A stretch of DNA of 64,000 nucleotides, taken from NCBI RefSeq assembly GCF_020171285.1, contig NZ_JAIUZI010000020.1, positions 1 to 64,000 on the forward strand, written 5' to 3'. The notes below the pieces were generated by a model. The model did no database searches and was not told the origin of the DNA. It saw only the letters and a program-made list of their open reading frames with translations. This stretch comes from Seohaeicola saemankumensis (lineage in GTDB: Bacteria; Pseudomonadota; Alphaproteobacteria; Rhodobacterales; Rhodobacteraceae). Below, piece after piece: positions 49,025-63,669 of this stretch; position 1 is the first letter of the stretch, and each line of letters begins with the position of its first letter. The position numbers and the translations under genes were made by a program.

Positions 49025-51067
49025 TCACTCCTGTCCGGGCAATTGTTCGTTTGGCATTACGAAGACCGGTCGTGCCGCTTCGACGCAGGCAACGTTGGGG
49101 TCGGCATCGGGCGACAGGACAAAGGCGTGCACTAACGCCTGGCCACAAAGGGTTAGCAGCCCCGACGTATGACCGGCCATCGGGATCTCCACAACCGTGA
49201 CACTGGCAAGGGTTTCGGCAACCCTTTGGCCGAGGATCGCCGGCGTGGCCGTATCGAGTGTGGCGCCGACCACCAGGGTCGGCACATCGCTTTCAATCGG
49301 TGGGGGCGGTGGCGCATAATCACCCGCAGGCAACCCAAGTTGCGCGCAAGCAATTTCGTAATGGGCGGGCCATTGTACGCCCGGTCCGATCAACTGCGGC
49401 GCCTCGAAATCGCGGTAGTGCGCAAATCCGAGATCGTTTGAAATCCTGGGGCCGCGGTCGTTGCAGTTGACGGCGTAGTTTGTGATGGGGCCCATCCCAA
49501 TGAGCCCGAAATCGAAAGAGGGACTGAGCAGCGTCCGAAAGACCTGCCGCACCTCATCCTCGTCGAGCCGACCGGCGATTGCGAGCATTTCCGTTTGCAG
49601 GCCGGGAAGGAGAATCGTCCTTTGGATCAGCGCCTGAAGCCCCTCCGCAGTGCGCTGCTCCGGATGCAGAAGATATGGTTCCAGGTTCGCGATCACGGCA
49701 CCGCTCAGCATGCCACCGGACCGCGACCAGTTCCTGAATACGCTGACGATCAGGTCGACCCGATCATCCGCCTCGAGCGCGGCCTCCCGCAAGAAGGCGT
49801 TCGCGAGCGCGAGCGATTGAACCGCCTCTTCGATGGTGTCCAGCTGTGAAGAGATCCCTGCGATTTCGGCCGCGGTTTCTTCGAAGGGATCCGGCTGGTC
49901 GACTATGGATTCCTCGGCCAGACGGGTTCGCTCTGGCAAGGTGACCTCGAACCGCGTGGCGGCCATGGCGAGATCATAAACCGCCGTCTCGCCCTGCTCC
50001 AGTTCCGCCACGAGGCGAGGGAGATAGGGCACAAGCGGTGACTGAAGGCTCACCGCTGTACGCATGAGGTCGGCAACGGCCTGCCAGGTTATCGGATCGC
50101 CCTCGTCGCGATCTAGCGGTTGCTCCTGCAATGCCGCCAAAAGCCGGCCGGCCCGGACTCGAATGTCAGGGTAGGCCGCTGCACACGCAGTATCCTCTTC
50201 GCAACTGCTCAGCACTCCCAAGACGACCTCGGAATACTCGTAGGCCTGTGCGTAGAACTCGATGCTTGTGGGATGCACGCTGTCCAAGACGGCAGTCCGC
50301 AGGTCGGGAAGGTCCGCGCCGTTCGCGGAACGGGTGTAATGATCAAGGACGCTAAGGACGACGGTGGTACCGTAAGACGCGCCAAAGAGATTGTACGATG
50401 CGTATCCCAGGTGCTCCATCACTGCGATAGTGTCCTGCACCGTGCTGGCGGTGCTGTAATGCTCCAGTTCGATGCCCCGTTCCTCGAACAGCGGAAGGCA
50501 CTGACTGAGATCCCTCGGGGCGAGTTGCTCGGCAACGACCTGAAAAGCCGCTTCGGGGTCACTGAATGCGTTCAGCCCAAAGGCATCGAACTCCGCAGCG
50601 CGCGAGCCATCCTCGTCGTCATTGGCCTCCGGGTCGACGATCATCACATCAGCCCCGCAGTAGAGATCGTTGCTGAACCCCGTGCCGCGCTGGTCGAACA
50701 AGATCACGTGGCGGCTGGCGCGCAACGCGTCCGTACCGGTGCTGATCATCGACAGGGCATTTAGCGTTGTCCCGCCAGGCCCTCCCTGAAAGAAGATAAC
50801 CGGGTCCGGGAGTGGCGCGAGGCTCGTGCTCTTCAGGATCAGGTAGGTTATCGGGATCTGGGTGCTATTTGGATCGGACCAATCCTGCGGGACCATGATC
50901 TGGCCGCAGATCAAGGTTTCGCCCTCAACCTCTGGAGCGGTAATCCGGATCGGGCACTCGATATCACTGCTTTGCGCTTGTGTTGGATCAGTAGCCTGCA
51001 CAAAAAGCGCCAATGAAAGAGTTACCTTGGCAATAATCTGCATGTTCGTCATCGCCGTTGCTGACAT
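49025..51067 (-). CDS. Secreted alpha/beta hydrolase, TAP-like, with helical insertion (B)
   Basis: 680 residues from ATG 51067 (MSATAMTNMQ), signal MQIIAKVTLSLALFVQATDPTQAQ. Motifs QGGPGGT, DQRGTGFS, nucleophile GASYGTTVV, catalytic Asp in GATLDTATP and His in MAGHTSGLL. Same domain plan as its neighbour, with the same extra helical region (SSQLDTIEEAVQSLALANAFLREAAL). The two genes are tandem paralogues and likely one transcript. GAGGAAA lies 12 bases before the ATG. Confidence 0.82.
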   Translation of the reverse strand: MSATAMTNMQIIAKVTLSLALFVQATDPTQAQSSDIECPIRITAPEVEGETLICGQIMVPQDWSDPNSTQIPITYLILKSTSLAPLPDPVIFFQGGPGGTTLNALSMISTGTDALRASRHVILFDQRGTGFSNDLYCGADVMIVDPEANDDEDGSRAAEFDAFGLNAFSDPEAAFQVVAEQLAPRDLSQCLPLFEERGIELEHYSTASTVQDTIAVMEHLGYASYNLFGASYGTTVVLSVLDHYTRSANGADLPDLRTAVLDSVHPTSIEFYAQAYEYSEVVLGVLSSCEEDTACAAAYPDIRVRAGRLLAALQEQPLDRDEGDPITWQAVADLMRTAVSLQSPLVPYLPRLVAELEQGETAVYDLAMAATRFEVTLPERTRLAEESIVDQPDPFEETAAEIAGISSQLDTIEEAVQSLALANAFLREAALEADDRVDLIVSVFRNWSRSGGMLSGAVIANLEPYLLHPEQRTAEGLQALIQRTILLPGLQTEMLAIAGRLDEDEVRQVFRTLLSPSFDFGLIGMGPITNYAVNCNDRGPRISNDLGFAHYRDFEAPQLIGPGVQWPAHYEIACAQLGLPAGDYAPPPPPIESDVPTLVVGATLDTATPAILGQRVAETLASVTVVEIPMAGHTSGLLTLCGQALVHAFVLSPDADPNVACVEAARPVFVMPNEQLPGQE

Positions 51068-51122
51068 CGCTTTGCGCGCTTTCCTCAAGATCGGTTTCAG
51101 GCGTTTCGCAACGAATGCTTCG

Positions 51123-51623
51123 CTACTGTTCAATCGAGAGGAGGCTTTCAGGCAGCGCCTTTTCGCAGATGACGGAACCGTTTCCCTGTGCACCCACAAC
51201 CTGTATGGGTGTTTCACGCGCGTTAACCACGATGAAAACGGCTTCCATTTGGTAGACGGCCTCGCCACCGATCAGGTCGAGTTCATGATGGAGGCGAAGA
51301 ACATTCGTGGTGGCTGACGCACGCACCGTCGCGTGAGATGTGCAAACACCGTCCGTGCACGCCCAGACGTCTTCACCCGTGAAATCCTCCTCGCTCAGGA
51401 ACAGGGCTAGGTTTGCCGCGTCCTCTGCGTCCCGCACCGCGAAGCGCATCGGCTCGACGCGCGTGCTGCCGCTATCCTTTTCGGTCCATGCGATCGCACC
51501 GGTGCACGTCGTGAAGGACCCTCCGAGCGCATCTTCAATCGCCTCGTTGCCTGTTGCAGTTGTCGCCAGAGTGGCCGCTGCGAAGATTACACCATAGCAG
51601 GTCAGAAATAGTGGTGATCTCAT
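51123..51623 (-). CDS. Secreted protein of unknown function
   Basis: 166 residues with signal MRSPLFLTCYGVIFAAATLATTATG. The mature part has four cysteines (FTTCTGAIAW, WACTDGVCTSH, ICEKALP), probably two disulphides. No family recognised. Its 3' end runs towards the second hydrolase, and its start overlaps the upstream gene as ATGA at 51620-51623, so the two are coupled. Confidence 0.65.
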   Translation of the reverse strand: MRSPLFLTCYGVIFAAATLATTATGNEAIEDALGGSFTTCTGAIAWTEKDSGSTRVEPMRFAVRDAEDAANLALFLSEEDFTGEDVWACTDGVCTSHATVRASATTNVLRLHHELDLIGGEAVYQMEAVFIVVNARETPIQVVGAQGNGSVICEKALPESLLSIEQ

Positions 51624-51931
51624 ACTGCGCTCTCCCTGATCCGTTGCAGAACCGCGGCGCAGTCGTCTGCGCTGCCGACGATTTCCCTGGGCGCCTCGTT
51701 GCCCGCCAGTGCAGCCGCGTCCGCAGCGGCTCGGGTCAGGACCTGATCGATTTCCTCAAGCGTCAGAAGCCCCTCTGCCTCGGTCGCCTTGACGGTCATG
51801 CAGATGCCTGCCGATGCCCCGGTGGCGATGCCAACGCCGGCCGCCTTGCCTCCGATCACGGACCCGCCGAAAACTGCGCTGACGCCCAAGCCGATGGTCA
51901 AGCCAACAAGTCCAATCAGCACCTTACCCAC
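51620..51931 (-). CDS. Small protein with glycine-zipper helix
   Basis: 103 residues from GTG 51931, with AAGGAG nine bases upstream. Two glycine-rich hydrophobic stretches (GLVGLTIGLGVSAVFGGSVIGGKAAGVGIATGASAG) with the spacing of a glycine zipper, then a helical tail (LLTLEEIDQVLTRAAADAAAL). Possibly a membrane oligomer. ATGA overlap with the next gene. Confidence 0.6.
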   Translation of the reverse strand: MGKVLIGLVGLTIGLGVSAVFGGSVIGGKAAGVGIATGASAGICMTVKATEAEGLLTLEEIDQVLTRAAADAAALAGNEAPREIVGSADDCAAVLQRIRESAV

Positions 51932-51962
51932 AACTTATCTCCTTGCTGAAAAGAGACGGTTT

Positions 51963-52139
51963 TCAGGGCCATATCAAATTAAGGATGAACACTGCGGCTC
52001 CGACTCCGAAGAACAGCGGCCAACTCCATCTTGGGCCACCCTCTTTATGCGGCACGTAGAGACCAGCTTTGTGCATGCCGATCATTACGACAAATACGAG
52101 AACTCCCGTTACGAGTGCATGTGCAAGATCAAAGTGCAT
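51963..52139 (-). CDS. 58-residue two-helix membrane protein
   Basis: MHFDLAHALVTGVLVFVVMIG starts the first helix, a short loop MHKAGLYVPHKEGGPRW is outside, and LFFGVGAAVFILNLIWP the second. GGGAGGG lies just before the ATG, which overlaps the stop of the next gene upstream by 11 bp. No family known; coding is supported by ribosome site, overlap and composition. Confidence 0.6.
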   Translation of the reverse strand: MHFDLAHALVTGVLVFVVMIGMHKAGLYVPHKEGGPRWSWPLFFGVGAAVFILNLIWP

Positions 52140-52437
52140 CTGACCCTCCCTTGTCTGGTTTTGGTTTTCGGGCTTCGCCGCCGCTATAGTAGCGACAAAG
52201 CAATGTCAGGATCGCGAGATTGAGCAGCGGTGTCAGCGCGGCAAGCCAAGGTCGCAGCGTCTCTGGGAAACCTTCTAACCAAAACACCCAGGGAACCCCC
52301 AGAGGTATCAGAAATACTCCTGACAAAGGATCCTGCTCCTGACCGAAGAGCCCGAAGGTCCCGATCAGGAGCAACGCCAGGGCAACAAGGTATAAGGCCC
52401 AGACGATCCGGACAGCCCATTTGCATGCGCCTGCCAT
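52129..52437 (-). CDS. Hypothetical membrane protein
   Basis: 102 residues with about three hydrophobic helices (AVRIVWALYLVALALLLIGTFGLF, VFLIPLGVPWVFWL, LAALTPLLNLAILTLLC) and a basic tail. Overlaps the 58-residue gene downstream. No family recognised. Confidence 0.6.
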   Translation of the reverse strand: MAGACKWAVRIVWALYLVALALLLIGTFGLFGQEQDPLSGVFLIPLGVPWVFWLEGFPETLRPWLAALTPLLNLAILTLLCRYYSGGEARKPKPDKGGSDAL

Positions 52438-52444
52438 TCCGCTC

Positions 52445-52825
52445 TCAGTTTGCCTTGCGGATCAGTCGGACGATCAGGATCACTGCGACGGCGCCGATCA
52501 GCGCAGCGATAAAGGCACCGATCGCACCCCCAATCGAAATCCCAAGAATGGGCAGCACGTAACCTGCAAGGATCGATCCGCCGATGCCCGCGGCGACATT
52601 GCCGAGCAGGCCGGAGCCGCTGCCCTTCACGATCAGACCGGCCAGCCAACCGACGACGGCTCCGACGATGATGACGAGCAGCAGGCCGATGATGCCGCCG
52701 ACCGCCATACCGATAGCCTCTTCTTCCTGCGCGAAGACAGGTGTCGCAAATAGTGCCAGCGGCCCAAGGATGTAAACCGATCTTGCACGACGGAACACAC
52801 GACGCATGTAACATTCAGTTGTCAT
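52445..52825 (-). CDS. GlsB/YeaQ/YmgE-family membrane protein with signal-type N-terminus
   Basis: 126 residues from ATG 52825, with AAGGA eight bases upstream. The core IIGLLLVIIVGAVVGWLAGLIVKGSGSGLLGNVAAGIGGSILAGY is the GlsB/YeaQ/YmgE transglycosylase-associated family (small three-helix proteins linked to envelope stress). Unusually it has an extra N-terminal segment with a signal-like helix ending PVFAQEEE. Confidence 0.8.
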   Translation of the reverse strand: MTTECYMRRVFRRARSVYILGPLALFATPVFAQEEEAIGMAVGGIIGLLLVIIVGAVVGWLAGLIVKGSGSGLLGNVAAGIGGSILAGYVLPILGISIGGAIGAFIAALIGAVAVILIVRLIRKAN

Positions 52826-52907
52826 GTATTTGGTCCTTCTTGCTTTTTGTGCGATTTCTTTTGTCACAGCGCGGGTGGTGCGAACTGTGTTTTGACTTCG
52901 TAGTAAA

Positions 52908-53210
52908 TCAGCAATCTTCGGCGGGGAGCATGGTTACATCGGAATAGCGGCCGTCGGATGTTGTGATACGCGCGCAAGCGCCCGTGTCGCGGTTGAACCA
53001 GAACGCCGTGAGACCCTCTGTCCGGATCAACTCGTAGCCGAGATTTTGAATACCCATCTCAGCTTGTCCTGCACGCGCGCCTTCAAAAGCCGTCAGGTCA
53101 GAAGAACTTCCTACGGACGGTTGCCCGGGTTCCGGACTGGAGGCTTCTTCACATCCTGCCAGGCCAAGAAGCGCCGCTGCGCCAAACGCAAGTTTGATAG
53201 AATGAGCCAT
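52908..53210 (-). CDS. Small lipoprotein of unknown function
   Basis: 100 residues. Lipobox LLGLAGC at residues 15-20, Ser/Pro-rich spacer, then GYELIRTEGLTAFWFNRDTGACARITTSDGRYSDVTM, a short Cys-containing domain found in many secreted proteobacterial proteins. Lies in a run of secreted proteins. Confidence 0.65.
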   Translation of the reverse strand: MAHSIKLAFGAAALLGLAGCEEASSPEPGQPSVGSSSDLTAFEGARAGQAEMGIQNLGYELIRTEGLTAFWFNRDTGACARITTSDGRYSDVTMLPAEDC

Positions 53211-53248
53211 TAATTGGGTTCCTTTCTAAGAGTTTCAGAGTTGGACCG

Positions 53249-53875
53249 TTATTCGACCCCGAAGATAACATTGAACGACTGTGCGCTATTGGATGTGTTG
53301 TACACTTCCACTATGTGATCGCCGGATTGCCACAACTGGCCCCGGTACTCCTGATCGGCGCTCATTTCGTCAAGGAGGACAGACCCATCGGGATTGTAGA
53401 TGACATAGGTCATACCGGGGCCTTGCGCGGCGAGGCGGAAATACAAAAACTGACCGTCACGCGCGCCAAGAATATAGCGGCTGCTTTCCTGCGGTTGGAG
53501 CGAACCTGTGAGTTCCGCACCCGAGGTGCCTGAAGCGAAAGTGACGCGTTCGGTGCCAGAGTCCGAGGCTCCGGCCATCGCGCCATCACCGTCATCCGCG
53601 GCTTGAGAAACTGTCAGATCGGCCACGACGCCATCATTGGAGACAAGGCAGCGCCAGACAGTGTTGCCCGCGTCGCGGAACATGATCAGCGAATTGGCTT
53701 CGGAATACTCCGAGGAGATGACCGTTCCGCTTTGACCATCGGGACCACCGACAGCGCGAATCTGGTCAATGCAGCCATCGATGGCAGCTTGGCCGACATC
53801 CGCGGATACCGGCCCGCCAACAAACAGCGCGAGGCCGGCGGCGATCGTCGAGGATAGTAGGTTTTTTTTCATCAT
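53249..53875 (-). CDS. Secreted two-domain protein (short paralogue)
   Basis: 208 residues. Signal MMKKNLLSSTIAAGLALFVGGPVSA. Domain 1 (AAIDGCIDQIRAVGG, ISSEYSEANSLIMFRD, TVWRCLVSNDGVV) and domain 2 (RYILGARDGQFLYFRLAAQGPG, YNPDGSVLLDEM, YRGQLWQSGDHIVEVYN) are both found in the next gene. Domain 2 resembles the carbohydrate-binding-like inhibitor I78/pre-peptidase type fold of many periplasmic proteins. Role unknown. Confidence 0.7.
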   Translation of the reverse strand: MMKKNLLSSTIAAGLALFVGGPVSADVGQAAIDGCIDQIRAVGGPDGQSGTVISSEYSEANSLIMFRDAGNTVWRCLVSNDGVVADLTVSQAADDGDGAMAGASDSGTERVTFASGTSGAELTGSLQPQESSRYILGARDGQFLYFRLAAQGPGMTYVIYNPDGSVLLDEMSADQEYRGQLWQSGDHIVEVYNTSNSAQSFNVIFGVE

Positions 53876-54100
53876 GTCGTTACCTTAAGCATTGTTCTTC
53901 GATACTTTTTTAGCCAGTTGAGGCGTTCTTGGAGAGCGAAGCTCTGAGTTTGGGCGGTCTTCCGCAAAACGATGCGAAACTTCGCCTGAAATTCTAGCGT
54001 GTTCAGTAGCCTTCATATGACGCCCAACCGCTGTCGCGGACAGGGGCAGAGAGTTCATTCCTTGCTCACTTCATGCTTCTCAATCTTCAGCTGCGATGAC

Positions 54101-54976
54101 TCACCAGATACCCATCCAAACGGAAAATCGTGCATCATTGTGTCCGCGATTGATAACCTCGACGACGTGCTCACCATTCATGTAAAGCTCACCCTGATAC
54201 GGCAGCGTGTTTGGAACCTGGTCGAGTAACAGGCGACCATTCGGCAGAAAGATCTGATACTGGATCGCCGGATCCGTGTTCACAAAGCTGACCTCCAGCA
54301 TCTGGCGATTGGCAGCTTCCAACACGAAGCGGATTGAGCTTCCCGGCGACAGCGAACCCGCCTGTTGCTGGCCATTGGTGCCCGACGCGAAGCGCACGAT
54401 CACAGTCTGAGTTGTTGGAGCAGCGGCAGACGCTTGGCTTGAAGAGCGAGCCGGGGCAGCGGCCTCAACCAAGTATTCTCCAGCTGCCCAGCCGCTCGCA
54501 TCGCCATCGGCTATTTCGCACCACTTGCGACCTTCGTTGAAGACGCATCCGCGGTTCTCCACCACCATGCCACGATGCAGGCGCGCGACCGTACGTGACG
54601 AGGTCGACGGGTCAGAATGCACATTCAACGTGCTGTGCACATTAATGCGCCAATAGTCTGGGCCACCGCTCATACCATCGGCATAGTCCCCAGTCGTTGC
54701 CGCATGGACCGGCGCCTCATCTGATCGAGTTAGCTCCTGGACGACCCCGTCGTTGGAAACAAGGCATCTCCAGACATTGTCATTCCCGTCCTGAAGCACA
54801 ACCAACGAATTTGCCTCAGAAAACTCCGTCCGGAGGATATGCCCGCCGCCACCGCTGGCTTCCGAGCGGGTGACCTCAATACAGGCGTCAATCGCATCCT
54901 GGCTGACCTCGGCGCCGATGGCAACACCGGCGAAGCCCATGCAAAAGACAGCGGTAAATGCAGCGCTTTTCTTCAT
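54101..54976 (-). CDS. Secreted protein with SH3-like domain between two conserved halves (long paralogue)
   Basis: 291 residues from ATG 54976. Signal MKKSAAFTAVFCMGFAGVAIG. The N-terminal half (DACIEVTRSEASGGGG, LRTEFSEANSLVVLQDGND, NVWRCLVSNDGVVQEL) and C-terminal half (RFVLEAANRQMLEVSF, FLPNGRLLLDQV, YQGELYMNGEHVVEVIN) match the shorter neighbour. Between them is a bacterial SH3 (SH3_3) domain, about residues 100-170 (STLNVHSDPSTSSRTVARLHRGMVV ... WCEIADGDASGWAAGEYL). So one paralogue has gained or lost an SH3 module. Confidence 0.78.
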   Translation of the reverse strand: MKKSAAFTAVFCMGFAGVAIGAEVSQDAIDACIEVTRSEASGGGGHILRTEFSEANSLVVLQDGNDNVWRCLVSNDGVVQELTRSDEAPVHAATTGDYADGMSGGPDYWRINVHSTLNVHSDPSTSSRTVARLHRGMVVENRGCVFNEGRKWCEIADGDASGWAAGEYLVEAAAPARSSSQASAAAPTTQTVIVRFASGTNGQQQAGSLSPGSSIRFVLEAANRQMLEVSFVNTDPAIQYQIFLPNGRLLLDQVPNTLPYQGELYMNGEHVVEVINRGHNDARFSVWMGIW

Positions 54977-55180
54977 GTCTGGTAACCCCCTATCAGTTGT
55001 TGTGTCGCAAACACAGTTAGAGTGATGAACTTTATTGGTGTGGTCTGATTGGACCCAAGTTTCGTCAATTGATTTCGGCGGACTTGCTTTCAATCATAGG
55101 CAATCTCGGCGCTCGATTCATTATTGAGCTCGCCACCTGCTCTAACGACGTTCCTGCCTTATTCGCAAATCGCTTAGGCT

Positions 55181-55723
55181 TCAAAGTCGACCGTTTCGGA
55201 GATTGAACACCTGACCAGCCCCATTGGTACCGCAGATCACGTGCTTATGACCGGACGCTAGTTCGATATAGAAGTTGTCGGATCCTTCTTGGCCTGCCTT
55301 GATGGCATGCACGTCCCGTTTGTGCACGCCCCAGCTTGACGCTGCTTCGTCCCGACAGGCCTGCATGGCCGCTGCTGGCACTTTGGTGCCATGCACATCG
55401 CGGGTCTTGTGGGCGAGGCGGTTGCTGCGTTCCTTTTGCCCAGCGTCGTAGCCCTGGCCATAGGACGCGCTGCTATGGCGAGAATCGTAGGGCTCGTTGT
55501 GTAGTCCGTCGCGATAGCCGCGCTCGAACTGGGCGGTCTGGTCCGCACCCTGCGGTTCCTGCCCTTCGTGATAGTGGTTCTGGTTGTGGGCCAGCGCGGC
55601 GATCCCGAGAAGAGCGATCGCACCCAGGGCGGCCTTTTCCTTGTCGTCCATGGCACTGGCTGGTGCCCCGGCGATGTTAAAGGCCAGTGCGGCGCCGGCC
55701 GCGAGAGTAACTAACTGCTTCAT
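55181..55723 (-). CDS. Secreted protein of unknown function
   Basis: 180 residues. Signal MKQLVTLAAGAALAFNIAGAPASA. A hydrophobic stretch AALGAIALLGIAALAH is followed by a Tyr/Gly-rich repeat region (FERGYRDGLHNEPYD, ASYGQGYDAGQKER) and a C-terminal domain with ACRDEAASSWGVHKRDVHAI and FYIELASGHKHVICG. Similar C-terminal domains occur in many secreted Rhodobacterales proteins; function unknown. Confidence 0.65.
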   Translation of the reverse strand: MKQLVTLAAGAALAFNIAGAPASAMDDKEKAALGAIALLGIAALAHNQNHYHEGQEPQGADQTAQFERGYRDGLHNEPYDSRHSSASYGQGYDAGQKERSNRLAHKTRDVHGTKVPAAAMQACRDEAASSWGVHKRDVHAIKAGQEGSDNFYIELASGHKHVICGTNGAGQVFNLRNGRL

Positions 55724-55823
55724 GGTTGATCTCCGGTTCGATGCTCATGCAATCCTGTGACAGGGCTCTCACTCCAGTGAGTAAGCCATGCCAACACAGG
55801 CACCAATCCGAAGTGCGAAGGCG

Positions 55824-56828
55824 TTATCCGATTTGCGAAATCCGCGTCACGTTATTCCGCCGGCCAAGCGTGGCGGATGGCGGCTCGTCGAAACGGTCGC
55901 GGTAGAGCGCCGCGAATCTGCCAGTATGACCAAAACCGCAAGCGTAAGCGGCAGCGGCCGTCGTGGCGACGTCGTCACCGCGCAGCAGCATCTCGCGGGC
56001 GGCCTCAAGTCGGATGCGCGTCAGATAGTCTTTGGGCGTCTCGCCTCTCACCGACCGGAACGCGTTTTCGAGCGTCCGGACGGAAATGCCGCAGGCGGTG
56101 GCGACTTCGGCCGTCGCGCCGATCTCGGCGCAATGCTCCTGCATATAGTCGACCGCGGTACGGACATGGCGGCTGGCGGCGTCAGACCTGAGTATGGTTG
56201 CGGTCTCCACCAGATTCAGTTGGCCGAGTAGATTCAGAACCTTGTCGAACAAGATGGATTGCCAACCCAAGTCTGTGGTTTGCATGCCTCGGTCGCCTTG
56301 GCACGTTTCCAGATCCTCGGCCAGGACTTGGGACAGGCTAAACAGATGCCTGACCTCGGGAACGATCTGGCCATCGGCCATAACGCAAAAATCGCCTTCG
56401 ATCCGAGCGGGGACTCCGACCGGGTTTACCCGGGCCGCTTCGCGCACCAACCGGGACTGATCAATTATGAGCACTAGCGCCAGAAAATCTGCATTGCCCG
56501 GGCGAAGCACCCGGGTTTGACGGTGGCCGCGCGAAGCGATCAGCATTTGGCCGACTCCTGCCCGGTATTCCCGGCCCGCCATCTCGGTCAGCAATTCACC
56601 TCTGACCGGCATGATAACCGAGACTTTGTGATCCTCGGAAACCCTTATGTCATGTCCAGTCGAATTAACACGTCCCAGAAGCATCTCACCGACATAGGCG
56701 CGATCGACAGTCATACGCGGGCTTCGCGCGTCATGCATAACAGGCAGAATATTCCCGGAGAAAAGTCCGCGGTATCTCCCTGGTGTCTTACCAGCTCGTA
56801 CGTCGTCTATTCGAACAAAACGGCCCAT
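55824..56828 (-). CDS. AraC-family transcriptional regulator
   Basis: 334 residues. N-terminal regulatory domain, C-terminal pair of helix-turn-helix motifs: VATACGISVRTLENAFRSVRGETPKDYLTRIRLEAAREM and AAAAYACGFGHTGRFAALYRDRFDEPP. Such regulators often sense aromatic compounds or stress. It lies between the secreted-protein run and the phosphotransfer operon, so it could control either. Confidence 0.85.
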   Translation of the reverse strand: MGRFVRIDDVRAGKTPGRYRGLFSGNILPVMHDARSPRMTVDRAYVGEMLLGRVNSTGHDIRVSEDHKVSVIMPVRGELLTEMAGREYRAGVGQMLIASRGHRQTRVLRPGNADFLALVLIIDQSRLVREAARVNPVGVPARIEGDFCVMADGQIVPEVRHLFSLSQVLAEDLETCQGDRGMQTTDLGWQSILFDKVLNLLGQLNLVETATILRSDAASRHVRTAVDYMQEHCAEIGATAEVATACGISVRTLENAFRSVRGETPKDYLTRIRLEAAREMLLRGDDVATTAAAAYACGFGHTGRFAALYRDRFDEPPSATLGRRNNVTRISQIG

Positions 56829-57029: not shown

Positions 57030-57962
57030 TCACTTTTTCGCCAGATCCCTTCGGACCAGTCGCCCGATGGATTCCGGCAAGTCGCGCAGTTTGATCCGCG
57101 TGACAAAATCCGGAGCTTGCAATGCCTGTTCATCGATCGTGCCATCCCCGGCGATCTCGATCAAGGTGAAGGCTTTCGGCGACCGGTGTGTCGCGCCCAG
57201 CAGGACGCGCGGCCCTGACCCGAGGCAGGACTGCGATATCATCAGAATGCCGTCGGCGACGCCGGGGTAATAAGCATGGTGATGACCGGTCAGATATAGG
57301 TCCACTCCGTGCCGCACAAGCAGGTCATGCAGTTTCTGATCCCCGATCACGTCATTGCGCCGCTTTTCGGCAAAGGGCCAGAGCGGCAGGTGACTGAACA
57401 GGACAATCGCCCTGTGACCAGGCGCCTCGCGCGTGAGGAGATCGTCGAGCCAGGCAAACTGCGCTCCGGACAAGGCCCCGACCGTTGTCACGTCCAGTGA
57501 CACCAGCAGAACCCCCTTTGCAGACAGAGCATAGCGAAAGGGAAATTCGGACCGGTCCACGAAGGGCAGGTCGGGCGTCCGGTCTCCCCAGACGCGGGCA
57601 TAGATTTCGCGCTCCCGTTCAAACCCGCCATAGGCCGAGGCATCATGATTACCCGGGGTGACGACAAAGGGGATACCTGCCTGGGCCAGCGGCGTGGTCA
57701 CTGCGGCGTCAAAGGCGCTCCACATCGCCTTGACCTGCTTGTCGGACAGGTGAGGGTTGACCTGCTGACCCGCGACCATGTCGCCGGTGCTGATCACCAG
57801 GTCGGGCCGCAAGTCAATGACCCGCTCGATGGCCGCGTGAACGGTCTGCCCATACTTGGTCGTTCCATAGCTGCCGTTGAGGTCCGAGATCACCGCGATC
57901 CGCAACGGTTCCGCCGCGACACCACTGGCGAGGCAAAGCAGGAGGAGAACTGCGCGGAGCAT
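57030..57962 (-). CDS. Secreted calcineurin-like metallophosphoesterase
   Basis: 310 residues from ATG 57962. Signal MLRAVLLLLCLASGVAA, then the metal sites: VISDLNGSYG, LVISTGDMVAG, VTPGNHDASA, FSHLPLW and GHHHAYYPG. Class of phosphoesterases acting on nucleotides, phospholipids or phosphoproteins; the substrate cannot be read from sequence. The stop-start of the preceding gene reads TGAGATG, so it is translated together with the kinase-like gene. Confidence 0.85.
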   Translation of the reverse strand: MLRAVLLLLCLASGVAAEPLRIAVISDLNGSYGTTKYGQTVHAAIERVIDLRPDLVISTGDMVAGQQVNPHLSDKQVKAMWSAFDAAVTTPLAQAGIPFVVTPGNHDASAYGGFEREREIYARVWGDRTPDLPFVDRSEFPFRYALSAKGVLLVSLDVTTVGALSGAQFAWLDDLLTREAPGHRAIVLFSHLPLWPFAEKRRNDVIGDQKLHDLLVRHGVDLYLTGHHHAYYPGVADGILMISQSCLGSGPRVLLGATHRSPKAFTLIEIAGDGTIDEQALQAPDFVTRIKLRDLPESIGRLVRRDLAKK

Positions 57963-57963
57963 C

Positions 57964-59394
57964 TCAACCGGCCGCACAATCCACATCCGCCGGCGTTACA
58001 GTTCCCTTCAGAAAAAATGTCTCGGGCTCCAGGTCGAAAATCAACTCCCCGCGCTTGCAGGTCTCCGACAGGATGCCAAACGCCAGCGCCGTGTTCTTCA
58101 CGACCTGCGCAACTTGCCGGTTAGTGAGGCCGAAACTATCCTGAACATAGGTATAGAGAGGTCCCCGAACGCGGAAATCGGCATCGAGCGCGGCCAGCTT
58201 CCGGTAGGTCTTGGCCGGAAAGTGCCGGAGCTTTTCCAGCATCTGCGTCGACTTGGTGAAATTGGCATAGGCCACCCGTCCACCCGCGTCGTTGTCGTTG
58301 AGATGGGTGCGTTTGATGCGGATCGCCGTCTGGGGCGCCTTACCGCGATCCCTGCTGTGGTTTTCCGCCTTGTGGCTCTTGACCTCGCCGTTCTCGACCC
58401 ACATCCAGCGTGTCTTGTAGTCGATGTTGCCGATCCGGTCCTGCTGGCTGAAGATGAAGTCGAGCAGCACGATATTGGCGATGTCGGTCATCCAGTAGGC
58501 GACCTGGCGGGGATCGACATCGGGCCCCATGTCGCGGCGGATCTGCTTCGTCTTGATCGCCTCTTCGATGCCTTCGGAAATGGCCTTTTCGATCGGTGCA
58601 CCGGAGCGCAGAGCGCGGAACGGAGCCGTTTCCTGGAAGTCGAGGTTCTGTCCTTTGCCCCAACCCGAGGCACGGGTGCCGTTGACTTCCGACCCATAGC
58701 GTGACCCCGGACTGTTGAGCAGCGCGCCGTAAAGCGCCTTGCGATCTGCCGTGAACAGTTCGCTCGTAGGGCTGTAGGCCTTGGGGTTTTTTTCCGCATC
58801 GACTAGCTTGCGCCAACCGGCATGGTTCATGCCCGATGAATGGCCATGCCCGGAGATCGACAACCCGCGCGAGGCCACCTCGTCAGAATGCGCGCCACGG
58901 TCCATGCTGCGCCATACCGCCGGAGGAACACCGATATCGGCCTCGAAGTACCGCGAGAAATGGTAATACATCAGCGAAGACGCCGAAAAGGTTCCACTTG
59001 TGCCCTTGGCGTTCATCGTCGGCTTGAATTTTGCAAGGCTGTCTTTGGCCAATTGCTTGGCCGATTTGCCCTCGGCGCAGGCATGACGCTCGAAGCCAGA
59101 CCTGTCACCGGCATACGGTCCTTTAGAGATGTCATAGATCATCATCCCGGGGCTCGTGCTCCAGGTCTTTGGGCAGAGCGCGACCGTGGGCGCATAGAGA
59201 TCTAAGGCGCAGTATTCTGCTTCTGTCTTACGGTCATCCTTGGAGTAAACGGCCCCAGGCATTCTTGCGATGCGCACACAGCGCTCGGTCACGCCATTGG
59301 GGCTGGTAAAGGTCGTTTCCTCACCCTTGACGGCATCAGTGGCGAAAGCGGCACCCGGCAACAGCCCGGCGCATAGGATGATGGTGCGCAGCAT
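57964..59394 (-). CDS. Secreted protein resembling FAM20/HipA/CotH-type atypical kinases
   Basis: 476 residues from ATG 59394, signal MLRTIILCAGLLPGAAFATD. Observed: an N-terminal Cys-rich part, a helical segment LMYYHFSRYFEADIGVPPAVWR (about residues 141-162), which resembles the segment following the ATP-binding Lys in FAM20 kinases, then LDFIFSQQDRIGNID (residues 311-325), resembling the catalytic loop of FAM20/PI3K-like kinases, and later LNDNDAGGR (365-373), a possible metal-binding site. The likeness is by eye. It is the fourth gene of the operon and lies between two phosphatase-like genes. Confidence 0.5.
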   Translation of the reverse strand: MLRTIILCAGLLPGAAFATDAVKGEETTFTSPNGVTERCVRIARMPGAVYSKDDRKTEAEYCALDLYAPTVALCPKTWSTSPGMMIYDISKGPYAGDRSGFERHACAEGKSAKQLAKDSLAKFKPTMNAKGTSGTFSASSLMYYHFSRYFEADIGVPPAVWRSMDRGAHSDEVASRGLSISGHGHSSGMNHAGWRKLVDAEKNPKAYSPTSELFTADRKALYGALLNSPGSRYGSEVNGTRASGWGKGQNLDFQETAPFRALRSGAPIEKAISEGIEEAIKTKQIRRDMGPDVDPRQVAYWMTDIANIVLLDFIFSQQDRIGNIDYKTRWMWVENGEVKSHKAENHSRDRGKAPQTAIRIKRTHLNDNDAGGRVAYANFTKSTQMLEKLRHFPAKTYRKLAALDADFRVRGPLYTYVQDSFGLTNRQVAQVVKNTALAFGILSETCKRGELIFDLEPETFFLKGTVTPADVDCAAG

Positions 59395-59402
59395 GGGTTC
59401 TC

Positions 59403-60077
59403 TCACTTGGGGCAAATTGCGGCCTGTTCGGCAGCCGAGATTTTCAAGGATGGGTTCAGTTTGAAATGCTCGAAATGATGGTCGATCCAGGCATCGCAAC
59501 CATCAGAGCATCCGGCGCCGTTGCGGGCGTCGTTCCAGTACTTCTTGGCTCGCTCCTCGCTCCAGCCGCAGAACTGGACCAGCGCCATGGCCGATATGGC
59601 CCCCGAGGAATGAACCCCCCACATGCAATGCACGTAAACCGGACCTTGGCTCGGGTTCTTGATGACGTTGTAGATTTCCGCCATCACGTCGTCGGGGCGC
59701 GTGGATTTGCCAGCCGCATAGGTCAGCCTGCCGCTTCCGCATGAGGTCTCGCCGTATTTCGTGTGCTTCCCGAAATCGATGTAGCGCGCCGAAGAGAAGC
59801 CGGACTCGCACAGTTGCTTGCGCTGAGACGACGACAGGCCGGTGCGGGCCTTGTCACCTCCCTTGAACCCACCACGATAAAGCACGCCCGAGAGGACCGG
59901 GCGCACAAAAGCCAGCCCATCGGCGGGAACGGCATTCGATCTGGCCAGCATCTGTTCCTTGCCCGGTCCACCCGACCGCGCGGTAAAGTCCGTCGCCATC
60001 GCCGGGGCAGCGATCACAAGCAGGCCCAACCCCAGAAACACGGAACGGATCATTCCAGCTAAGCCATTTCCAATCAC
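59403..60077 (-). CDS. Secreted tyrosine/dual-specificity phosphatase-like protein
   Basis: 224 residues from GTG 60077 (AAGGAG upstream). Signal SVFLGLGLLVIAAPAMA. LYRGGFKGGDKARTGLSSSQRKQL is the usual start of the family. The active-site loop reads VHCMWGVHSSGAI (Cys151). In active enzymes the sixth residue after the Cys is Arg; here it is Ser157. So it may be inactive, a binder, or work differently. It precedes the kinase-like gene by 8 bp. Confidence 0.7.
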   Translation of the reverse strand: MIGNGLAGMIRSVFLGLGLLVIAAPAMATDFTARSGGPGKEQMLARSNAVPADGLAFVRPVLSGVLYRGGFKGGDKARTGLSSSQRKQLCESGFSSARYIDFGKHTKYGETSCGSGRLTYAAGKSTRPDDVMAEIYNVIKNPSQGPVYVHCMWGVHSSGAISAMALVQFCGWSEERAKKYWNDARNGAGCSDGCDAWIDHHFEHFKLNPSLKISAAEQAAICPK

Positions 60078-60123
60078 CTCGGGTACTCCTTTTCGAATTG
60101 CCTACCACGCAAGATCAGTCGTG

Positions 60124-61029
60124 TTATTCGTTTCCGTCAATGCGGTATGTCAAAAGACGCGACTTCTTGCCGTCGTCTGTCACGACATAAAGCGTAATGC
60201 CATCCGCGCTTAACGCCACGCCTTCCGCGTTGCGCACGGGTTCCAGTTTCTTTTTCCTCGCATCCATCAGGGTCCATCCGCGTGCCGTCATGGTGGAAGT
60301 GTCCAGGAAGAACACCGCTTCACCGGTGTCACTGCAAATCCAGAACCCCTTGCGCCGGGTATCCCAAGCCAGACCGGACACATCGAGTTGATCCTCGCCG
60401 GCCGCAGAAGAAACAAAACCAATGTCCGGCGTGAGATGCAGGGCCCCAAGCACCCGTGTCAGATCCGGCGCGAGTTCGATCAGCAGTCGGGGATGGCGTT
60501 CCTTCAGGACATAAACGGCACCGGTTTCGGGGTTCACTGCAATGCCTTCGAGACCGTTGTTGTCACCGGATATGAAATAGGGAGCGAGTGCCTGTGCGCC
60601 CTCCATCGAAAGCAGGGCAAAGCGCGAAATCGTGCCGTCGTGCGAAACGGACAGGATCTCCGACGTATCCTCGCGAACGGCCAGGACGCGATGCCCGTTA
60701 ACGTCCTCGGCAACACCTTCGAGATCGGTTTCGCCGGGCAGCGACCTTTTTCTATGTACGTCGCCTTTTGCGTCCAGCCGGAACACCCGAGCGGTGTCGT
60801 CGCTCACCGACCAAAAGCCATCGCCCAGGGCGAGGCTGAGACCAGACACCTCTACAAAACCAGCAGAAGGATCGGCGATCCTGCGAGCCTCGACGAACGA
60901 CAAGGTAATTTCCGCCGCGGCATCACTTGCGACTGCCCCCTGCACCAGAATTGATAGCGCACCAACGGCTACACCGTGCCCGAAAATTTCTGAAAGACCG
61001 CGTTCAGCCGGCCGGTTCATTTGCTTCAC
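60124..61029 (-). CDS. Phytase-like / SdiA-regulated beta-propeller protein
   Basis: 301 residues from GTG 61029 (or ATG 61020). Signal-type helix (VAVGALSILVQGAVASDAAA). Repeated blades: VSGLSLALGDGFWSVSDD, DLEGVAEDVNGHRVLAVRE, GLEGIAVNPETGAVYVLKE, DVSGLAWDTRRKGFWICSD, NAEGVALSADGITLYVVTDD. This is the esterase-like phytase/SdiA-regulated family, secreted propellers often binding calcium. If active on inositol phosphates it would fit the other phosphate genes. Starts 6 bp after the membrane protein. Confidence 0.75.
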   Translation of the reverse strand: MKQMNRPAERGLSEIFGHGVAVGALSILVQGAVASDAAAEITLSFVEARRIADPSAGFVEVSGLSLALGDGFWSVSDDTARVFRLDAKGDVHRKRSLPGETDLEGVAEDVNGHRVLAVREDTSEILSVSHDGTISRFALLSMEGAQALAPYFISGDNNGLEGIAVNPETGAVYVLKERHPRLLIELAPDLTRVLGALHLTPDIGFVSSAAGEDQLDVSGLAWDTRRKGFWICSDTGEAVFFLDTSTMTARGWTLMDARKKKLEPVRNAEGVALSADGITLYVVTDDGKKSRLLTYRIDGNE

Positions 61030-61035
61030 CGCGCG

Positions 61036-61824
61036 TCAATCGACATGCCAGTCAGAAATCCCGCTGCCCTTGGTTTCCGCCAGCCTGGCCATTTCCCGTT
61101 CCAGTGCCGAACGGCGGGTTCCTTGAGTGCCGGTCACAACGTAATGCACGGTGGACTTGAACTTGGTCCGGCTCATGGAAACGATGCGGAAACCACTTTT
61201 CTGGAGTGCGTCGCGCAACTCCTGCATGGATTCGGACACTGGCCTCTTCTTGTCGGAGAACTGGATATCGAGTCCAAAATTCGCAGGCCCACCAAGCAGG
61301 TAGAGAATGGCCCATGCGCTGGCTGTCGTGATCAGGGCGACGACCGGCAGGTCCAGCCCGATACATAAACCGATCAGGGTTACCAAAATGAGGCGCATCG
61401 TGTCGCCGGAATTGTCGTCGGTCTTGAACCGCAACAGCCCTCCGAGACCGAAGAGGACAAACCCGATCAAGTAGCCGTGATGCATGATCAGAAACCCGAC
61501 TACCATTCCGATCAGCGCAAAGATAAAGAGCGCGCGCGGCGCCTCGAAATCACTTCTCGTTCTCCGGGTTGCGGACATGATCGGGTGATAGGCGATGGCC
61601 GCGGTCATCAACGATGTTTCGATTAGCGCCACGGCGAACTCGACCAATTCCGTCGGTTCAGACAACTGCCCCCAACCTCGGCCCCGGACCGCAATGTCCG
61701 GCAAGATCGGCGCAAAGTCGGTAGGCGCCTGGCCAAACGCTGGACCAGAAAAGACCGCGATAATCACAATCGCCGCGCCAAACAGTGGCAATGACGCGAG
61801 TCCGAGGTTCGTTTGGTTGGTCAC
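61036..61824 (-). CDS. DUF4956-like membrane protein
   Basis: 262 residues. N-terminal signal-like helix, about five further helices with LIGFVLFGLGGLLRFKTDDN, then a cytoplasmic C-terminal domain (SMQELRDALQKSGFRIVSM, VHYVVTGTQGTRRSALEREMARL). The LLRFKT pattern after a helix and the C-terminal small domain fit DUF4956, related to MgtC/SapB. DUF4956 genes are known neighbours of CotH-kinase and VTC (polyphosphate polymerase) genes in other bacteria, which supports the kinase idea for this operon. First gene of the operon. Confidence 0.6.
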   Translation of the reverse strand: MTNQTNLGLASLPLFGAAIVIIAVFSGPAFGQAPTDFAPILPDIAVRGRGWGQLSEPTELVEFAVALIETSLMTAAIAYHPIMSATRRTRSDFEAPRALFIFALIGMVVGFLIMHHGYLIGFVLFGLGGLLRFKTDDNSGDTMRLILVTLIGLCIGLDLPVVALITTASAWAILYLLGGPANFGLDIQFSDKKRPVSESMQELRDALQKSGFRIVSMSRTKFKSTVHYVVTGTQGTRRSALEREMARLAETKGSGISDWHVD

Positions 61825-62151: not shown

Positions 62152-63669
62152 TGTGTTGAAAAACTCCGCTTGAGCGTGGCGTGATCGGCTGATTCGCTTG
62201 CCTTGAGGTAAGGGAGGTCTGGCGATGATGGGACCGAGACAGGTGGCGCAGGGTGCGCTGTTTTACGAGTTTAGCATTGAAGATCATGTTCCGTCGGATC
62301 ACTTGTTGAGGGCCATGGACCGGTTTGTCGATCTTGGTGACATGCGCCGGCATCTCGCGCCGTTCTACAGTTCAACGGGCAGGCCCTCGGTCGATCCCGA
62401 GCTGATGATCCGAATGCTGATTGTGGGCTATGCCTTCGGTATCCGGTCAGAGCGGCGGCTGTGTGAAGAGGTGCATCTAAATCTGGCGTATCGCTGGTTC
62501 TGTCGCCTCGATCTGACCGATCCGGTGCCCGACCATTCGACCTTCTCGAAGAACCGCCACGGCAGGTTCCGGGATAGTGATCTCTTCCGACACCTGTTCG
62601 AGAGCGTCGTCGCCCGGTGCATCATCGAAGGCCTGGTTGGCGGTCAGACCTTCGCATCCGATGCCAGCCTCATCCGGGCAGACGCGAACAAGCAGTATGC
62701 AGCAGCCAAGGCCGATTGGGACCCCGACCGGATCGATGTTCAGGCGGCGCCCCGTGCCGTACGCGAGTATCTCGACGTACTCGACGATGCCGCCTTTGGA
62801 GCAGCCAGCGAGGTTGCGCCCAAGTTCACGTCCTTCGCCGATCCGGCCAGCCAGTGGACCGGCGCGCGGAAGGGACCAGCCTTCTTTGCCTATTCCGACA
62901 ACTACCTGATCGATACGGACCACGGCGTGATCCTTGATGTGGAGGCCACCAGGTCGATCCGCACTGCGGAGGTCGGTGCCACGCGAAAGATGATTGCGCG
63001 CACGAGGGAGCGCTTCGGCCTGACGCCAGACCGGCTTGCTGCGGACACGGCCTACGGGTCCGGTGAGATGCTGGGCTGGCTCGTCGGAAAAGGGATCGAG
63101 CCGCACATCCCGGTGATTGATAAATCTGAGCGCCGAGATGGCACATTCTCTAACGCCGAGTTCCGCTATGACCCAGAGCGCGACGAGTATACCTGTCCGG
63201 GTGGCAAGGCCCTGAAGAAGTATTGGCGTCAGATGAAGAAACCTCGCGATGGGGTCGGCAAGGACGGCTTCCGAAAGTACTTCGCCCGCAAGCAGGACTG
63301 TTCAGCCTGTGCGCTCAAGGAGCAATGCACCCCGAACCAGCCAACCAGGAAGATCTCCCGCCATGTCCACGAAGCCGCAAGAGACGCAGCCCGGCACATC
63401 GTGACGACACACGCCTATGCCGATGCCAGCAGGCGACGAAAAAAGGTCGAGATGCTCTTTGCTCACCTCAAACGCATTCTCCGGCTCGACCGGCTGCGCC
63501 TCCGCGGACCAAACGGCGCCAAGGATGAGTTCCTCCTCGCTGCAACCACCCAAAACCTCCGGAAACTCGAAAAACTGATCCCTGGCTCACCGGCAATGGC
63601 ATGAGCGCAAAGACCAGACCGACGCGACCGCAATGGCAACGCGTTCTCACAGCCGACTTCTTCAACACA
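62152..63669 (+). mobile_element. IS1182-family insertion sequence
   Basis: About 1.52 kb bounded by imperfect 19-bp inverted repeats: left TGTGTTGAAAAACTCCGCT (62152-62170) and right, on the minus strand, TGTGTTGAAGAAGTCGGCT (63651-63669), 16 of 19 matching. It encloses one intact transposase gene. No target duplication could be confirmed. Confidence 0.85.
62225..63604 (+). CDS. IS1182-family transposase
   Basis: 459 residues. N-terminal DUF772-type helix region (FYEFSIEDHVPSDHLLRAMDRFVDL, STGRPSVDPELMIRMLIVGYAFGIRSERRLCEEV) and DDE catalytic core (FASDASLIRADANKQ, LAADTAYGSGEML, HVHEAARDAAR ... RRRKKVEMLFAHLKR). Intact, so it may still move. It lies in the other orientation from the neighbouring operon. 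Confidence 0.92.
   Translation: MMGPRQVAQGALFYEFSIEDHVPSDHLLRAMDRFVDLGDMRRHLAPFYSSTGRPSVDPELMIRMLIVGYAFGIRSERRLCEEVHLNLAYRWFCRLDLTDPVPDHSTFSKNRHGRFRDSDLFRHLFESVVARCIIEGLVGGQTFASDASLIRADANKQYAAAKADWDPDRIDVQAAPRAVREYLDVLDDAAFGAASEVAPKFTSFADPASQWTGARKGPAFFAYSDNYLIDTDHGVILDVEATRSIRTAEVGATRKMIARTRERFGLTPDRLAADTAYGSGEMLGWLVGKGIEPHIPVIDKSERRDGTFSNAEFRYDPERDEYTCPGGKALKKYWRQMKKPRDGVGKDGFRKYFARKQDCSACALKEQCTPNQPTRKISRHVHEAARDAARHIVTTHAYADASRRRKKVEMLFAHLKRILRLDRLRLRGPNGAKDEFLLAATTQNLRKLEKLIPGSPAMA

Follow-up and report, generated by a model that had tools for sequence, protein, structure and literature searches.

The window analyzed here, a 64,000-nucleotide stretch of Seohaeicola saemankumensis (contig NZ_JAIUZI010000020.1, positions 1–64,000), carries on its minus strand, at 57030–61824, five genes (denoted A–E) whose products are all predicted to be exported or membrane-bound. 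Relatives of these genes lie close together in other genera of the same family. We tentatively read them as an exported module kept together in several genera, made up of an atypical kinase-like protein (D), a degenerate protein tyrosine phosphatase (PTP)-like protein (C), and a metallophosphoesterase (E), often joined by a DUF4956-like membrane protein (A). The initial annotation had described the five genes as an envelope operon that might be an undescribed phosphotransfer system. In the literature on DUF4956, on DUF4956 with CotH or VTC, on FAM20-type kinases in bacteria, and on this combination of families, represented mostly by titles and the opening lines of abstracts, we found no description of the module, in line with the annotation's view of it as possibly undescribed. 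In the available part of PMC12599244, Fam20 is mentioned in the references only.

The five genes run head-to-tail, with intergenic gaps from A to E of 6 bp (if B starts at its GTG), 46 bp, and 8 bp, followed by a TGAGATG junction between D and E in which a single base separates stop and ATG. This layout, as first annotated, was confirmed from the sequence, and a hydrophobic N-terminal stretch is present in each of the five proteins. A promoter for the module found no support, with one site against 2.3 expected; terminator-like sites numbered 12 against 7.0 expected, and none was used.

Recurrence and linkage of the gene group

We looked for the module in 394 genomes of the host family (which includes Ruegeria), sampled at one per genus with our own genome included. 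A long match to D was detected in 17 of them, our own among these; a genome with only D fragments carrying stop codons (G012) was excluded. Every one of the 15 genomes with a strong C match and of the 13 with a strong A match also has D (Fisher P = 3e-25 for C and 3e-21 for A, values that would hold if the genomes were independent, whereas genomes of one family are mutually related). Weak matches, to C in G394, G100, and G033 and to A in G110 and G124, were left out of these counts. In other collections, D was found in one of 289 genomes of a class-wide sample (our own), had no match in plasmid records and none in one scan of viral contigs, and was recovered from a single locus, in Ruegeria, by a search of genome contigs.

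The grouping is not a chance arrangement, since it recurs in other genera. Among the 16 loci of relatives, C adjoins D in 14 and E adjoins D in 15, while A lies near in 12 and B in eight (loci L022 and L023, apparently the same contig, were counted once; L026 ends just past A, with B beyond view). The order A-B-C-D-E on one strand was seen in five loci and C-D-E-A-B in two; in three, A is inverted after E. In general, A and B sit before or after C-D-E, sometimes inverted, and two loci are reduced to D and E (L037) or to D alone (L038). Proximity therefore survives changes of order, which makes it good evidence of linkage. C-D-E is the steady core of the module, which A and B frequently, though not invariably, accompany. 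The annotated five-gene operon stands for this genome; elsewhere it does not, as there is no fixed order and A and B move or are missing around a steady C-D-E. Co-occurrence of the genes outside this genome, which the initial annotation had set as a test beforehand, was observed both in the 16 loci and in the association of C and A with D across the 394 genomes.

Protein distances within the module also agreed with one another (Mantel correlations, which include species relatedness). Over eight loci, agreement was highest for A-B (0.87) and D-E (0.79), followed by C-A (0.65), D-C (0.64), E-A (0.59), C-E and C-B (0.58 each), and E-B (0.55), and was weak for D-A (0.33) and D-B (0.25). Over 12 loci the values were 0.73 for D-E, 0.58 for D-C, 0.37 for E-A, 0.34 for C-A, and 0.25 for D-A. 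A two-cassette history, with A-B apart from C-D-E, was considered and is not clearly supported: At n = 8, C-A, E-A, C-B, and E-B agree about as well as D-C and C-E.

Protein D and its resemblance to FAM20 kinases

The window's D protein had no match in Pfam, NCBIfam, or PADLOC, and its one match in PHROGs was to a family of unknown function (E = 0.086). Across all 17 members, Pfam returned only DprA_WH (E = 0.017) and DUF7026 (E = 0.18), in one member each. The FAM20 profile (PF06702) matched none of the 17, and the profiles of CotH (PF08757) and HipA (PF07804) were not matched by D members in Pfam, hhalign, or our own profile tests. In 200 genomes of the phylum, PF06702 gave one partial match, below cut-off.

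The family nonetheless has a set of residues that do not vary. In the alignment of the 17 members, Lys124, Thr126-Met127-Asn128, Tyr143-Tyr144-His145, Ser147-Arg148, Asp312-Phe313, Asp319-Arg320, Asn323-Ile324, and Leu365-Asn-Asp-Asn-Asp-Ala370 are invariant, with Asp367 and Asn368 of the last block retained in 17/17; six Cys are conserved (five in 17/17 and one in 16/17). Compared by eye, the invariant blocks follow ALFKPM, AEIAAFHLDR, IFDFLMGNMDR, and HLDNG of FAM20C. In that kinase, according to the available part of PMC4421793, K285 and E311 form an ion pair, with D458 as the catalytic residue, D478 as a metal ligand, and E306 as a residue specific to Fam20; we assigned these residue numbers to sequence letters by our own count. 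Like D, the FAM20 kinases (FAM20C, FAM20A) are exported and have, in the same order, an FKP-type Lys, a helix of HxxR type, and a catalytic loop of the form D(F/Y)xxxxxDR; FAM20A offers a precedent for a secreted pseudokinase (available parts of PMC7948968 and PMC4421793). Unlike them, D gives no significant profile match, has DRxxN in place of DRHHYE, has no Glu where E311 and E306 would fall, and has a metal motif that does not align securely. Lys124 and Asp319-Arg320-x-x-Asn323 of D appear to fit FAM20-type kinase motifs, with the metal Asp (putatively Asp367) less surely placed.

We scored this resemblance with four FAM20-derived blocks, required in order and within spacing limits. Four of six FAM20 sequences from the PDB were used (a second FAM20A was dropped, and the xylosylkinase was not included), and the background proteins were mechanical open reading frames, some of which are probably not genes. 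The window's D scored 64.2 (Z = 5.1), above all 300 of its shuffles. The median was 59.5 for the 17 D members and 46 for 19 HipA proteins (best HipA 59), and the best of 101 background proteins reached 53.25. The catalytic-loop block fell on DRxxN in 17/17 members, the helix block on YYHxSR in 16/17, and the Lys block on Lys124 in 15/17. When D was aligned to seven profiles with hhalign, FAM20 came first (P = 0.011), ahead of HipA (0.036) and the unrelated profile of C (0.044), with agreement on Asp319 as the counterpart of D458; relaxed and global modes brought no improvement. With a profile of D itself, the four FAM20 sequences outranked all listed HipA and CotH proteins.

A number of results weigh against reading D as a FAM20-type kinase and, with it, against our reading of the module. 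No PDB entry matched D at E ≤ 10, and in Pfam no kinase family was matched by any of the 17 members. At position 140, the place of E311 in an alignment that is tentative and not significant, D has Pro (nine members), Ser (six), or Ala (two), and at position 135, the tentative place of E306, Thr (16) or Ala (one); the ion-pair Glu thus seems to be absent. The FAM20 blocks were chosen after the resemblance had been seen, and random sets of FAM20 blocks did equally well in 11 of 300 trials; all twelve of the best random sets listed overlap the catalytic loop. For nine of the 17 members, one or more of the 300 shuffles did as well, and five members scored under the best background protein. The metal block fell on LNDND in only seven members and elsewhere in 10, and hhalign aligned the FAM20 LDNG to VENG of D (residues 333–336) instead of to LNDND, at a probability for the D-FAM20 pair of just 3.7%. 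Against the four-sequence FAM20 profile D scored like shuffled D, and FAM20 was outranked by some background proteins when the D profile was used. In the module as a whole, A is missing from four of the 17 genomes, and because the C-A and E-A distances also agree (n = 8), it is not established that A-B and C-D-E had separate histories. Finally, we know of no source of ATP outside the cytoplasm.

The resemblance of D to FAM20 therefore lies mainly in the catalytic loop, to which the correctly ordered Lys and helix motifs can be added, and we take it as a lead, not as proof. AlphaFold2 models of D were of low confidence (mean predicted local distance difference test score of 33.9 for D alone and 35.7 with one relative), and a Foldseek search with the latter gave a best E of 0.34, the model being too poor to be informative.

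Partner proteins and surroundings

Protein C gave only weak matches to PTPs and dual-specificity phosphatases (DSPs) in Pfam (E = 0.03–0.09, best 0.031), and its best PDB matches were likewise weak (2m3v, E = 0.013; the periplasmic DSP TpbA, E = 0.018). As in TpbA and other PTP/DSP phosphatases, the HC P-loop and the helix that follows can be aligned, with HCMWGVH[S/A]SGA of C opposite HCKHGNNRTG of 2m3v. In contrast to those enzymes, the Arg of HCx5R is replaced in all 14 aligned members, by Ser in 11 and by Ala in three; Ser also takes its place in L032, a member outside the alignment whose P-loop was read from DNA. His150, Cys151, and His156 are invariant in the 14, as are seven Cys, which would fit three disulfides plus a free Cys151. 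Without the catalytic Arg, an ordinary PTP mechanism is unlikely. Since C has lost the Arg while retaining the loop and its Cys, it is more probably a binder of a phosphorylated ligand, or a protein with unusual chemistry, than an ordinary phosphatase.

Protein E is likely the working enzyme of the module, a phosphatase or phosphodiesterase. It matches PF00149 well above the cut-off (E = 2.2e-19; 71.1 bits against 21.5), which bears out its annotation as a metallophosphoesterase, and most metal ligands are kept. Calcineurin-like metallophosphoesterases and purple acid phosphatases share its GD, GNHD, H, and GHxH motifs, differing from it in the first motif, which in E is DxN in place of DxH. 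The metal motifs, comprising Asp27, Asp61, Asn105, His106, His191, His227, and His229, are invariant in 16/16 members. Three members have a twin-arginine-like start.

Protein B passes the Pfam cut-off as an SdiA-regulated protein (PF06977; E = 5.9e-20; 71.9 bits against 21), with its link to A here (distance r 0.87) as a point of difference from that family. Phytase was rejected as its first label, PF06977 scoring higher; the secreted phytase-like propeller of the initial annotation survives as a second label (PF13449, E = 3e-11). Protein A has four hydrophobic segments (three to five in its relatives). The window's copy stays under the Pfam cut-offs for DUF4956 (PF16316; E = 0.05; 13.8 bits against 30.6) and DUF456 (E = 0.0014). 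Among its relatives, the Pfam family most widely matched is DUF4956 (13/13 at E ≤ 1, best 9.3e-6).

That DUF4956 genes neighbor CotH-kinase and VTC genes in other bacteria, as annotated, is in print: The available part of PMC7112168 describes DUF4956, CotH, and a polyphosphate polymerase together beside pel genes in streptococci, clostridia, and bifidobacteria. The present module resembles these Gram-positive loci in that a kinase-like protein has a DUF4956-type neighbor and differs from them in that D is not CotH and that C and E are extra. CotH was found in none of the 17 module genomes, and a VTC-type gene in one (L100, G289:C5), on a contig other than that of the module. A link to a polyphosphate polymerase was dropped on this count, and the inositol-phosphate or polyphosphate chemistry that had been suggested for the module gained no direct evidence.

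Table 1. Features of the module and its downstream regulator in the window (protein roles predicted from sequence)
Feature	Position	Strand	Relatives or basis
A, DUF4956/DUF456/MgtC-like membrane protein, 262 aa	61036..61824	-	relative near D in 12/16 other loci
B, SdiA-regulated/phytase-like protein, signal-like N-terminus	60124..61029 (GTG; 301 aa) or 60124..61020 (ATG; 298 aa)	-	relative in 8/16 other loci
C, exported PTP/DSP-like protein, degenerate P-loop HCMWGVH[S/A]SGA, 224 aa	59403..60077	-	adjoins D in 14/16 other loci
C Cys151 codon, nucleophile position of PTP loop	59625..59627	-	alignment
C Ser157 codon, place of catalytic Arg of HCx5R	59607..59609	-	alignment
D, exported protein bearing kinase-like motifs of FAM20 type, no family matched significantly, 476 aa	57964..59394	-	
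D Lys124 codon (AKFKPT), proposed counterpart of FAM20C Lys285	59023..59025	-	alignment and block test
D Asp319 codon (QQDRIGN), proposed counterpart of FAM20C Asp458	58438..58440	-	alignment, block test, and hhalign
D Asp367 codon (LNDNDA), tentative counterpart of FAM20C Asp478	58294..58296	-	invariant 17/17; block test here in 7/17 only; hhalign pairs another stretch
E, exported calcineurin-like metallophosphoesterase, first metal motif DxN not DxH, 310 aa	57030..57962	-	adjoins D in 15/16 other loci
AraC-family regulator downstream of E, putative role	55824..56828	-	relative near module in 3 other loci

On the E side of the module, the window carries an island of genes (49025–56828) for small exported proteins, namely, an SH3_3 protein, a related secreted protein, a 180-aa protein (GYRDGLHNE..QGYDAGQKER), and a lipoprotein-like protein, together with a Transgly_assoc protein, an alpha/beta hydrolase, and the AraC regulator. 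Relatives of several of these genes recur beside the module in other loci. A membrane acetyltransferase of HGSNAT type lies near the module in L026 (128–877) and L034 (10995–11801), both recognized in Pfam, and in L033 (10832–11521), assigned by cluster only; L033 also carries a ShlB/FhaC-type transporter.

The module looks mobile and losable. A DDE transposase (DUF772, DDE_Tnp_1_6; 62225–63604) lies upstream of A, L030 has a transposase from this same cluster near the module, and a phage-type integrase (L023, 4603–5679) adjoins E in a Ruegeria relative. The excluded genome G012 (L039) holds a decayed copy, in which D fragments, one with stop codons, lie beside a fragment of E. At a contig end, L040 (G386:C29) has a second, partial D with stops in a genome that also has an intact copy, and a C fragment (G394:C9:482266–482403; profile positions 46–91, one stop), perhaps a relic, occurs in a genome with no D match.

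Possible roles and alternatives

Our reading of the chemistry is deduced from sequence throughout. D, as a protein resembling atypical kinases, with FAM20/HipA-like motifs and without the ion-pair Glu, may bind a phosphate compound, whether a nucleotide or some other, and would modify or sense a ligand in the envelope. Its PTP-like partner C might bind the phosphorylated ligand or carry out unusual chemistry on it, and E would hydrolyze it. A and B, when present, would supply or anchor the system; the membrane component may help a donor or a substrate to cross the membrane, a part that DUF4956 could also play beside CotH elsewhere. If A does the same job as DUF4956 does elsewhere, D would stand where CotH stands there. 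A more specific version, which we hold to be unlikely, would make D an exported enzyme of kinase fold whose active site has been rebuilt (FK-x-TMN, DRxGN, LNDNDA, and no ion-pair Glu) and which transfers phosphate or another group within the periplasm, using a donor that is not cytosolic ATP and is supplied with DUF4956-like help, and C a matching Arg-less reader or eraser of PTP fold, the whole being an extracytoplasmic modification system of Gram-negative bacteria distinct from CotH. To our knowledge, few cases of extracytoplasmic group transfer have been described in bacteria, and what serves as donor is a question still to be answered.

The alternative that fares best, although still on the unlikely side, is that D, instead of being a kinase, represents a new exported fold or hydrolase, with C, D, and E degrading or salvaging an extracellular phosphorylated compound. 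This would agree with the lack of a significant family or PDB match for D, with E being a hydrolase and B having a phytase-like second label, and with the patchy presence of the module (17/394), which fits a niche trait. It is harder to square with the kinase-like order of D's motifs and the invariance of its Lys and DRxxN, and no transporter was recognized among the genes recurring beside the module, only some of which were scanned.

Alternatively, D and C could both be pseudo-enzymes, binding a ligand or one another as parts of an envelope assembly with a structural or sensory role. D and C each lack a canonical catalytic residue while keeping near-invariant sites, both have conserved Cys (six and seven), and small exported proteins, SH3-type ones among them, are found repeatedly in the neighborhood. 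On the other hand, Lys, Asp, and Cys are invariant at catalytic-type places and E looks active, and we regard this explanation as improbable.

Classical reversible phosphorylation of envelope proteins or sugars, with D as an active exported kinase, C as an active PTP/DSP, and E as a second phosphatase, is more doubtful again: The invariant catalytic-loop motif of D, the TpbA and 2m3v matches of C, and the clear metallophosphoesterase E speak for it, whereas C lacks the catalytic Arg (14/14 and L032), D lacks the ion-pair Glu (17/17, under the non-significant alignment) and has an unsure metal Asp, and no extracytoplasmic source of ATP is generally known. The periplasmic reversible phosphorylation first suggested for these genes is supported only in part, and not in the form of an active kinase paired with an active PTP.

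As a module, then, these genes would form a testable set, in which a kinase-like protein is kept with a metallophosphoesterase and a PTP-like protein devoid of the Arg, frequently alongside a protein of DUF4956 type, and would extend the link between DUF4956 and kinases to Gram-negative bacteria. Should D prove to be no kinase, it would still be an exported family of ∼476 residues that is without a match in Pfam.

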